From Bradyrhizobium semiaridum (GTDB taxonomy: Bacteria > Pseudomonadota > Alphaproteobacteria > Rhizobiales > Xanthobacteraceae): a stretch of 64,000 bases of DNA. The stretch's first letter is position 1. Each line of letters opens with the position of its first letter. The stretch covers positions 124,001 through 188,000 of the forward strand of contig NZ_JAGKJJ010000001.1 in the NCBI RefSeq assembly GCF_020329505.1, written 5' to 3'. The notes under the pieces are model-generated. The model worked only from the letters and a program-made list of their open reading frames with translations. It was not told where the DNA came from and did no database searches. The position numbers were made by a program, and so were the translations under genes. Shown one piece after another: positions 57,779-59,724 of this stretch.

Positions 57779-58414
57779 ATGCGCATGAGTTCGACGATGA
57801 CGACTGGAATGCGCAAGCAAAGGCGTTGGACATTCGGTGCCCCCTTGCTGGCAATTGCCTTGGCGGCCCTGCCCTTCACTTCGTCGGTCCATGCGCTCGC
57901 GACCACGGATGCTGCGACGACTGCGCCGCAGAACGACGATAGCGAGCAGTTCGATGCGCGGGCGGTTCGCCGCGAGCTCGACAACTTCCAGGCAGCACAG
58001 ATCTCGCTGCGTCAGGCCATGACGATCGCCGAGCGGCTGCATGCCGGCTCGACCACCGCGGATATCAGCTTCGACGGCGGATCGGAGCCGGCGGTGTTCC
58101 GGGTCAAGACAGTGCAGCGCGATCGCGTTTGGCGGCAAACCATCAATGCCGCGACAGGCCGGGTCATCGATGCCGAGGCCGCCTTGCCGCTCACGGAGCT
58201 CGATACCGAGGACCGCGGCAACCTCGTCGTGCTGAGGGCGCTCCGGCATCGCCTCGCGGATGCGGTCAGCGTCGCCGAGCGCGCAACCTCGGGCAAGGCG
58301 ATCAGCGGCGGCCTGATGCGCGAGCGCGGCAGGCTCAACTTCGTGATTGTCGTGGTCGCCGGCAGTGACCTGAAACAGGTGATCCTAGAGCCGCCGGGCG
58401 CCCGCTTGCGCTGA
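57779..58414 (+). CDS. secreted PepSY-domain protein (211 aa)
   Basis: From ATG 57779 (MRMSSTMTTGMRKQRRWTFG). A signal peptide with LLAIALAALPFTSSVHALA is followed by a PepSY-like core: AAQISLRQAMTIAERLHAGS, FRVKTVQRDRVWRQTINAAT and GRVIDAE. PepSY domains inhibit or bind peptidases or act as sensor modules. Its expression is probably set by the TetR-type operator in its promoter. A downstream ATG at 57785 is also possible. Confidence 0.7.
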   Translation: MRMSSTMTTGMRKQRRWTFGAPLLAIALAALPFTSSVHALATTDAATTAPQNDDSEQFDARAVRRELDNFQAAQISLRQAMTIAERLHAGSTTADISFDGGSEPAVFRVKTVQRDRVWRQTINAATGRVIDAEAALPLTELDTEDRGNLVVLRALRHRLADAVSVAERATSGKAISGGLMRERGRLNFVIVVVAGSDLKQVILEPPGARLR

Positions 58415-58441
58415 TCGGCCAGGATTTTTGCCCAAAAGCCG

Positions 58442-58470
58442 TTGACGGGCGCCGATACCTCCCGCATAAG
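58442..58470 (+). promoter_or_regulatory. sigma70-type promoter of the asd leader
   Basis: TTGACG (58442-58447), a 17-base spacer, then CATAAG (58465-58470). The predicted transcript start (about 58477) coincides with the leader ATG at 58478, just as in the argD leader. Confidence 0.6.
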
Positions 58471-58477
58471 TCGCACC

Positions 58478-58549
58478 ATGATTAACGCGACCAAACGCAC
58501 GACCAAAACCACCAAGCCCTCCGGGGCCTCGGGAGGCGTGCGCGCGTAG
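58478..58549 (+). CDS. Thr/Lys-rich leader peptide (23 aa), predicted attenuator of asd
   Basis: MINATKRTTKTTKPSGASGG then VRA. Residues 5-13 are TKRTTKTTK: eight of nine are Thr or Lys, products of the aspartate pathway that Asd serves. The ATG is 7 bases past the -10 with no Shine-Dalgarno, so it may be leaderless. The codon cluster (58490-58516) is followed by CGGGGC (58522-58527), complementary to GCCCCG in the 5' arm of the terminator. That is classical attenuator geometry: a stalled ribosome frees an antiterminator. Thr/Lys-controlled attenuation is inferred. Confidence 0.7.
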   Translation: MINATKRTTKTTKPSGASGGVRA

Positions 58550-58576
58550 TCGGTCGTATCGCATCATCTTCACCCG

Positions 58577-58609
58577 AAGCCCCGCCTGATGAAGGTCCGG
58601 GGCTTTTTT
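58577..58609 (+). terminator. attenuator terminator before asd
   Basis: 8-bp stem, AAGCCCCG 58577-58584 with CGGGGCTT 58598-58605, loop 13 bases, then a T-run to 58609. It is a canonical rho-independent terminator positioned between the Thr/Lys leader and asd. Confidence 0.8.
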
Positions 58610-58624
58610 GTTGCCTGCAGCACA

Positions 58625-58669
58625 CAGCATGATCCGGAAAAGTGGGAACCGGTTTTCCGATCAGATCAT
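58625..58669. repeat. palindromic repeat (GCATGATCCGGAAAAGTGGG type)
   Basis: Begins GCATGATCCGGAAAAG and ends GATCATGC, with complementary ends. Recognised as an abundant dispersed repeat of Bradyrhizobium-type genomes. It lies between the attenuator terminator and the asd start. Half copies are seen near 22241-22256 and 41374-41385. Confidence 0.75.
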
Positions 58670-58698
58670 GCTCAACCGAGACTCAAATGGAGGACACA

Positions 58699-59724
58699 GT
58701 GAGTAACGATCCCGTCGTCGCGATTGTCGGCGTCACTGGCGCCGTCGGTGCCGAGTTCATCGCCACCATGGACAAGCGCGGCTTGCGCGTCGGCAAGCTG
58801 AAGGCGCTGGCGAGCGCCCGCTCGGCCGGCAAGACCGTTGCCTTCCGTGGCGAGCCAGTCGTGATCGAGGAGCTCACCGAGCGCGCCTTCGAGGGCGTCG
58901 ATATCGCGCTGTTCTCGGCCGGCAGCAGCATCTCGAAGAAGTACGCGCCGATCGCCGTGAAGTCGGGCGCCGTGGTGGTCGACAATTCCTCGGCGTTCCG
59001 GATGGATCCGAACGTGCCGCTGGTGATCCCGGAGATCAATGCTCATCGCATCCGCGACCACAAGGGCATCATCGCCAATCCGAACTGCGCCGCGATCACC
59101 GCGCTGGTGCCGCTGTGGCCGATCCATCAGAAGAACCGCATCAAGCGCGTGATCATTTCGACCTACCAGGCCGCCAGCGGCGCCGGCGCCGCCGCGATGG
59201 ACGAATTGGTGGAATCCACCCGCGCCCATCTCAACGGCCAGGTGTTCACGCCGAAGGTGATGCCGCATCCCTACGCGTTCAATTTGTTCAATCACAATAC
59301 CGCTGTCGATCCCGAGACCGGCTACAACGACGAGGAGACCAAGGTCATCAAGGAGACCCGCAAGATCTTCGAGGACGAGAAGATCGCCGTCGGCGTCACC
59401 TGCGTACGCGTGCCGGTGCTGCGCGCCCACTGCGAGGCGATCACCTTCGAATGCGAGAGGCCGATCACCGAGGACCAGGTGCGCGCGATCCTCGCGGCGG
59501 CGCCCGGCGTCAAGCTGGTCGACGACCGCGCGAAGAACTATTTCCCGATGCCGATCGACGCCTCCGGCCAGGACGACGTGCTGGCCGGCCGCATCCGCAA
59601 GGATCTCAGCGATCCCTCGGGACATTCGATCTCGATGTTCGTCGCCGCCGATCAGTTGCTCAAGGGCGCCGCACTCAACGCGGTGCAGATCGCCGAGCTG
59701 CTGCCCGAGCGCGCGATGGCGTGA
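58699..59724 (+). CDS. asd: aspartate-semialdehyde dehydrogenase
   Basis: 341 residues from GTG 58699 (VSNDPVVAIVGVTGAVGAEF). Asd reduces aspartyl phosphate to aspartate semialdehyde, the branch point to lysine (and diaminopimelate), threonine and methionine. Evidence: nucleotide motif GVTGAVGAEF, catalytic cysteine in IIANPNCAAITALV, and the conserved STYQAASGAGAAAMDEL. GTG was chosen over in-frame ATG 58687 because GGAGG (58689-58693) is 5 bases before GTG, inside the would-be ATG reading. A leader, terminator and repeat precede it. Confidence 0.95.
   Translation: MSNDPVVAIVGVTGAVGAEFIATMDKRGLRVGKLKALASARSAGKTVAFRGEPVVIEELTERAFEGVDIALFSAGSSISKKYAPIAVKSGAVVVDNSSAFRMDPNVPLVIPEINAHRIRDHKGIIANPNCAAITALVPLWPIHQKNRIKRVIISTYQAASGAGAAAMDELVESTRAHLNGQVFTPKVMPHPYAFNLFNHNTAVDPETGYNDEETKVIKETRKIFEDEKIAVGVTCVRVPVLRAHCEAITFECERPITEDQVRAILAAAPGVKLVDDRAKNYFPMPIDASGQDDVLAGRIRKDLSDPSGHSISMFVAADQLLKGAALNAVQIAELLPERAMA

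Follow-up and report, generated by a model that had tools for sequence, protein, structure and literature searches.

The leader region upstream of asd

The window (the whole 64,000-nt stretch of DNA analyzed here, which sits in contig 1 of a 6.7-Mb genome) contains an aspartate-semialdehyde dehydrogenase gene, asd, that begins with GTG, occupies positions 58699 to 59724 of the forward strand and was assigned by NCBIfam (asd_B, PRK14874) and Pfam. The gene upstream encodes a PepSY-domain protein and ends at 58414. A preliminary description of this DNA had claimed a promoter, a 23-codon frame rich in Thr and Lys, a hairpin with a T run, and asd, and direct reading of the window's letters confirmed all four at the claimed positions. 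The promoter (58442 to 58470) consists of TTGACG (58442 to 58447), a 17-nt spacer and CATAAG (58465 to 58470). The leader open reading frame (ORF), MINATKRTTKTTKPSGASGGVRA, extends on the same strand from the ATG at 58478 to the TAG ending at 58549. Its putative control codons, codons 5 to 13 (58490 to 58516), read TKRTTKTTK, with AAA as the Lys codon at positions 6 and 10. Further along the forward strand are a candidate antiterminator arm, arm 2 (58522 to 58533), made up of CGGGGC (58522 to 58527) and UCGGG (58529 to 58533), and arm 3 (58573 to 58584), made up of CCCGA (58573 to 58577) and GCCCCG (58579 to 58584), which would be common to the antiterminator and the terminator. The intrinsic terminator itself (58577 to 58609) is a AAGCCCCG/CGGGGCUU stem whose 3' arm includes CGGGGC (58598 to 58603) and is followed by TTTTTT (58604 to 58609); in the folding model, RNA of the terminator region from 58560 on has an energy of -18.5 kcal/mol.

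Automated promoter and terminator scans of the window reported neither the leader promoter nor the leader terminator, because their rules require T in sixth place in the -10 box and a terminator loop of 3 to 8, neither of which these two elements have. The minimum free energy of 58472 to 58620 taken as a whole was not unusual for its composition (z of -1.23; 24 of 200 shuffles were as good). In contrast to what shuffling yields, the amino acid content of the leader stands out: among the 486 ATG-initiated ORFs of 15 to 45 amino acids on both strands of the window, no other packs 8, or even 7, Thr/Lys into a run of nine residues, and 5,000 dinucleotide shuffles of 58415 to 58698 yielded no ORF with 8.

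Between the terminator and asd lies a palindromic repeat, GCATGATCCGG...GATCATGC(TCAA), at 58627 to 58675. It is present only in some strains and is therefore probably no part of the switch. The distance from leader to asd across relatives is mostly near 165 or near 222. A copy of the repeat (GCATGATCCGGAAAAGTG..GATCATGCTCAA) also lies 3' of the canonical asd of the same genome (locus L002, 2525 to 2573), and Rfam gave a weak, subthreshold match of the window's repeat to a Brucella small RNA family.

Conservation, codon choice and transcription start

Conservation of the Thr/Lys codons, which the preliminary description had named as a check, was found throughout the Bradyrhizobium group. The anatomy seen in the window precedes the same type of asd at 176 of the 177 loci examined, which hold 132 distinct leader DNAs; at each of the 176, a terminator of the GGGGC-T-run type follows the leader at a distance of 85 to 140 nt. 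Only L090 departs from this: its Thr/Lys codons and its terminator are present, and by eye the end of its leader is disrupted by a frameshift of 1 nt. These loci were drawn from 91 genomes of the genus, 80 named records, two further loci, four second copies and the window; the collections overlap, many loci being one strain present in two of them. The 91 upstream regions comprised 30 returned loci, 56 from genomes chosen towards divergent asd and 5 from the family search, and the named records were the best 80 of 572 (78 titled Bradyrhizobium, one Bradyrhizobiaceae metagenome-assembled genome and one under the title Frankia sp. RB7, which is probably misnamed). A search of plasmids for named relatives returned three distant records. 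The window's asd type was present in 138 of 146 genus genomes searched, in two of these only in part; six of the other eight had the canonical asd alone and two had no match. All four second asd copies (L167 to L170) also carry a Thr/Lys leader. Among 126 distinct 23-codon leaders, Thr occupies codon 11 in every one and codon 5 in 121, while Lys occupies codon 6 in 124 and codon 10 in 122.

The leader's Lys codons are also unusual in kind. In the 80 named loci, AAA accounts for 160 of 178 leader Lys codons, whereas the asd genes of those loci, read over their first 336 codons, use it for 13 of 1,520 Lys codons, although kinship among these loci means that the AAA choices are not independent. 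The preference is weaker outside Bradyrhizobium (54 AAA to 40 AAG in 39 other leaders).

The conserved spacing of promoter and ORF bears on where transcription begins. Of 146 distinct upstream 60-mers from the Bradyrhizobium group, 143 have a TTGAC box, a 17-nt spacer and a -10 box ending 7 to 10 nt before the leader ATG; the other three belong to second copies, in which a CATAA-like -10 box is retained. The distance from -10 box to ATG is exactly 8 nt in 135 of the 146; in the window, which lies outside this count, it is 7 nt. By eye, the 39 non-Bradyrhizobium leaders mostly have TTTACA- or TTGAC-like boxes about 7 to 12 nt from the ATG. From the 7-nt distance and the conserved spacing, we infer a start at or next to the AUG (58477 to 58478, that is, at the first base or about 1 nt before it). 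Such a short distance leaves little or no room for a Shine-Dalgarno sequence, and the leader mRNA is probably leaderless, judging from the sequence. Excerpts of a report on B. japonicum give 320 mapped gene starts 0 to 10 nt before start codons, 192 of them exactly at the codons (PMC4842269), and the trpL leader of S. meliloti is described in excerpts of two others as leaderless (PMC7298713, PMC10117765).

We also considered whether the leader transcript, whose last encoded residues (GGVRA or similar) are well conserved in Bradyrhizobium, acts in trans, either as a small RNA (the terminated RNA of ~130 nt) or through a functional peptide, with control of asd in cis being secondary. The rnTrpL RNA and peTrpL peptide of S. 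meliloti are reported to be trans-acting (PMC7298713, PMC10117765). Against this reading, the strongest matches to a model of the asd leader in 149 genomes of the family (E of 1e-27 or better) fall at 8 places, exactly the 8 places of asd, and by eye the C-terminal residues differ outside Bradyrhizobium while Thr and Lys stay. We consider a primarily trans-acting role unlikely.

Weaker matches to the leader model (2.5e-9 and worse) occurred in 46 of the 149 family genomes in all, and those inspected lie away from asd. At five such loci in family relatives (L356, L358, L360, L362 and L363), short ORFs and a terminator precede genes that resemble dapA by eye. The short ORFs of L360, L362 and L363 contain Lys-Lys (e.g., MITSSCASLSSKKGPLPGTRDRRA), those of L356 and L358 a single Lys, and a lysine attenuator of dapA is possible at these five places. 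Short ORFs of a similar kind, for instance MIKSSRTFNRNHMTRFGWAVGGVAR, occur at four Bradyrhizobium loci (L357, L359, L365 and L367), with GGCCCCGCCGGCATCGGACGGGGCC and a run of four or five T after them; at L365 and L367, what comes next is an ORF that resembles, by eye, a DUF1127 protein.

A location upstream of asd together with a terminator would also suit a metabolite-binding riboswitch (for lysine, for example) that an ORF overlaps by chance. Yet no known Rfam leader or riboswitch family matched at its gathering score in the whole window or in 58400 to 58720; the sole window match at gathering scores was a tRNA, and 58400 to 58720 gave just four Rfam matches, far below those scores. By eye, moreover, the aligned conservation sits in the ORF, the CCGAAGCCCCG stretch and the terminator. 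We give a riboswitch almost no credence.

A proposed ribosome-mediated switch and its tests

The locus has two of the elements expected of ribosome-mediated transcription attenuators of amino acid biosynthesis genes: a small leader ORF in which codons for pathway end products cluster, seen in the sequence and its conservation and predicted to be translated, and an intrinsic terminator (the stem with its T6 run, the arms nearly invariant) between that ORF and the structural gene. The best explanation, to which we assign a probability of about 0.84, is a ribosome-mediated transcription attenuator that responds to Thr and Lys and controls an accessory asd. The preliminary description had gone further in supposing that the leader would gate the common step of the aspartate family, which is too strong, since the genome has a second, canonical asd that is 45% identical to the window's and carries no Thr/Lys leader.

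The proposal takes in the transcription start, the translation of the leader and the response to starvation. Transcription would begin at or beside the AUG of the 23-codon leader, whose mRNA would be translated in leaderless form. With charged Thr-tRNA and Lys-tRNA available, the ribosome would get to the stop codon, arm 3 (58577 to 58584) would pair with arm 4 (58598 to 58605), and transcription would terminate at the T run. Under a shortage of Thr or Lys, the ribosome would stall within codons 5 to 11, arm 2 (58522 to 58533) would pair with arm 3 (58573 to 58584), the terminator would not form, and asd, the proposed regulated gene, would be transcribed.

We examined these alternatives in a folding model that places a ribosome at a given codon and omits the RNA up to 13 nt from the first base of the A-site codon. 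The two folds are mutually exclusive in this model. For the window, the probability of the terminator was 0.01 with the ribosome at codons 5 to 8, 0.08 at codon 9, 0.71 at codon 10, 0.80 at codon 11 and at least 0.99 from codon 12 through the stop. Only stalls at codons 5 to 9, and in part at codons 10 and 11, thus block the window's terminator, so that T12 and K13 are predicted to be without effect; both Thr and Lys positions fall within the effective stretch, which makes two inputs plausible. A ribosome at the stop codon should leave arm 2 uncovered, and local folding of 58517 to 58536 or kinetics would then have to prevent pairing of arms 2 and 3. Across the 126 distinct leaders, the mean probability of the terminator was lowest at codons 10 and 11 (0.37 and 0.40), 0.57 to 0.71 at codons 5 to 9, 0.82 at codon 12 and 0.95 to 0.97 from codon 13 on. 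Counting against the proposed attenuator, the probability stayed at or above 0.5 for stalls at codons 5 to 9 in 60 to 69% of these leaders.

The pairing of 58522 to 58527 with 58579 to 58584, proposed as the antiterminator in the preliminary description, is part of the lowest-energy antiterminator, found as the minimum free energy fold of the RNA that a ribosome stalled at codon 5 or at codon 9 leaves uncovered, in which it is extended by UCGGG/CCCGA (58529 to 58533 with 58573 to 58577). It gained no backing from covariation, with 0 pairs changed on both sides in 39 aligned sequences and a score that did not exceed those of shuffles (473 of 500 reached it) and that was surpassed when the pairing was displaced by 2 columns. 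This alignment, A2, holds 36 sequences kept of the 132 distinct ones, plus L009, L184 and L186; a second alignment, A1, of 25 translational-type sequences lies outside the covariation count. Pairing is nevertheless maintained in 78.6% of aligned cells, against 21.6 to 60.9% in versions slid by 1 to 3 columns; the three-G core (columns 53 to 55) pairs in 115 of 117 cells and the UCGGG/CCCGA extension in 68.2%. The terminator is paired in 98.4% of cells of the 39 sequences, and its arms are nearly invariant and hence unable to show covariation; none was counted in A2. Complementarity of arms 2 and 3 was mostly not beyond that expected from synonymous recoding (p of 0.055 for the window, and p of at most 0.05 in 14% of the 132 leaders and in 9 of the 39 others); this test was judged by p values, the Bradyrhizobium mean energies being spoiled by failed duplexes (positive means).

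The absence of antiterminator covariation and the weak recoding test would both be compatible with a constitutive terminator behind a nonregulatory short ORF, in which the Thr/Lys stretch merely slows ribosomes and the terminator fixes a low level of asd. Against this explanation stand the AAA preference of the leader Lys codons and the conservation of Thr together with Lys, two end products beyond the asd step, in the leaders of two distantly related asd types (described below), and we regard it as very unlikely.

Thr/Lys leaders elsewhere and comparison with known systems

The canonical asd (P0002 type) is present in 138 of 140 genomes sampled from the order. Upstream of 65 canonical copies from outside Bradyrhizobium (25 returned loci and 40 chosen regions), an ORF in which a stretch of 13 residues includes 6 or more Thr/Lys occurs in 44, compared with 1 to 4 in each of five shuffled sets of 65; this is a crude test, and some of these hits may be spurious. 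At the stricter level of 8 Thr/Lys, 36 of 65 remain versus 0 in the shuffled sets. By eye, many of these leaders have their Thr/Lys codons at the leader's end, then CTCTCCC..GGGGAG and later a GGGAGAG-like stretch. All five Bradyrhizobium canonical copies examined (L256 to L260) lack a Thr/Lys leader, versus its presence in about two thirds of the others (L261 to L325). The window leader, with Thr/Lys at codons 5 to 13 of 23 and the other asd type downstream, does not have this canonical layout, which resembles that of the SEP5 ORF of S. meliloti (see below).

We rejected the idea that the Bradyrhizobium leader was simply relocated from the canonical copy, as the layouts differ. A moved leader is also countered by family f50, in which four canonical copies (L266, L270, L273 and L278) have no leader; three of those four genomes have a single asd match.

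Outside Bradyrhizobium, the window's asd type is uncommon: at an E value of 1e-110, it was found in 10 of 299 genomes sampled from the phylum, of which seven belong to the same genus as the window and three to other members of the class. Among the matches listed in other alphaproteobacterial genomes, a Thr/Lys leader was found at 39 of 77 loci and not at 38, a count in which L199 was scored as a leader by eye with only two Thr and two Lys, L203 (among the 38) has a partial asd match and cannot be judged, and 20 further matches listed are not included (one more listed row is L123, which was already among the loci). Within a single genus of family f62, and likewise within one of f158, there are copies both with and without the leader, which would fit gene transfer. 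A single stop codon interrupts the matched frame in the listed asd matches of L186, L196, L198, L204 and L211 to L219.

The hairpin of 32 of these 39 leaders is not followed by five T, and ten of the 32, all of family f62, have TTTGTCTTT or TTTGTCATT; a T5 run is present in L009, L122, L184, L186, L197, L200 and L236. At many of the non-Bradyrhizobium loci, a stretch before asd can, by eye, pair with the asd Shine-Dalgarno sequence (e.g., GTCTCC..GGAGAC, GACCCTGT..ACAGGGTC or GGAACCC..GGGTTCC), and arm 4 is complementary to the 5' side of that hairpin. Shuffle tests used one representative for each of 11 of the 15 leader-bearing non-Bradyrhizobium families, with f1, f60, f118 and f127, judged to be of the transcription type, left out; hairpin arms were located by arm pattern, and an automatic picker chose wrong hairpins in many sequences. 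Combined p values were 0.029 for the 5:6 pairing and 0.0002 for 4:5, with single values from 0.04 to 0.91 and from 0.02 to 0.55, respectively. In a partition-function test, the free fraction of the Shine-Dalgarno sequence rose by at least 0.2 between the two states in 5 of 39 leaders (L188, L194, L200, L202 and L204), changed little in most others and fell in a few, most in L009 and L184. We hold with moderate confidence that many non-Bradyrhizobium leaders may hide the asd ribosome-binding site instead of terminating transcription; this translational branch is put forward as a proposal.

A broader history, which we hold tentatively and at a little less than even odds, would have control of asd by Thr/Lys leaders arise at least twice in the class, once at the window's type and once at the canonical asd of Rhizobiales. 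The leaderless leaders of the window's type would have swapped output between termination, the mode presumed for Bradyrhizobium and some others, and masking of the asd Shine-Dalgarno sequence by successive alternative pairings (2:3 and 4:5 on; 3:4 and 5:6 off), and those of the canonical type would carry their codons at the leader's end.

The thrABC attenuator of enterobacteria encodes a Thr/Ile leader peptide. The window leader resembles it in being rich in codons for pathway end products and in having alternative hairpins and an intrinsic terminator, and differs in its use of Thr and Lys instead of Thr and Ile, in preceding a stand-alone asd and in its predicted leaderless start. Vitreschak et al. 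2004 is reportedly a source for the ilv attenuators of Alphaproteobacteria. Those attenuators, as excerpts describe them, share with the window leader an amino acid leader peptide and the bacterial class but use branched-chain amino acid codons (PMC1273637, PMC4117421). The trpL/rnTrpL leader of S. meliloti is likewise an alphaproteobacterial transcription attenuator with a leaderless leader ORF at the transcript 5' end, as predicted here; unlike the window leader, it uses Trp codons ahead of trpE and yields a trans-acting RNA and peptide, according to the same excerpts as above (PMC7298713, PMC10117765).

A further parallel is SEP5 of S. meliloti, a small ORF with six Thr and three Lys codons in the 5' untranslated region of a gene called aspartate dehydrogenase. 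According to excerpts of the report, SEP5 is translated (Ribo-seq and Western blotting), was proposed as a possible leader peptide and was called conserved only in Sinorhizobium (PMC10117765). Like the window leader, it is a Thr/Lys small ORF ahead of its gene; its Thr/Lys codons, however, lie near the 3' end of the ORF, a layout that resembles many canonical asd leaders and not the window's, and the excerpts give no RNA mechanism. Beyond SEP5, no Thr/Lys attenuator of asd was seen among the matches listed in the open-licence literature, supplements excluded, and an earlier description elsewhere is possible. The idea of such a leader is therefore not wholly new, SEP5 being a published hint for a relative of different layout.

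Sensing of Lys and Thr at the aspartate-family branch point of Alphaproteobacteria is little described in the literature examined. If the proposal is true, asd would have a simple two-input sensor in the form of a leader peptide that responds to both end products, and the use of one kind of leader for two outputs, termination and translation, would show cleanly how an attenuator can switch mode during evolution. Compared with known attenuators, what the sequences suggest to be new here is the pairing of Thr with Lys codons, the probable leaderless start and, perhaps, the two outputs.
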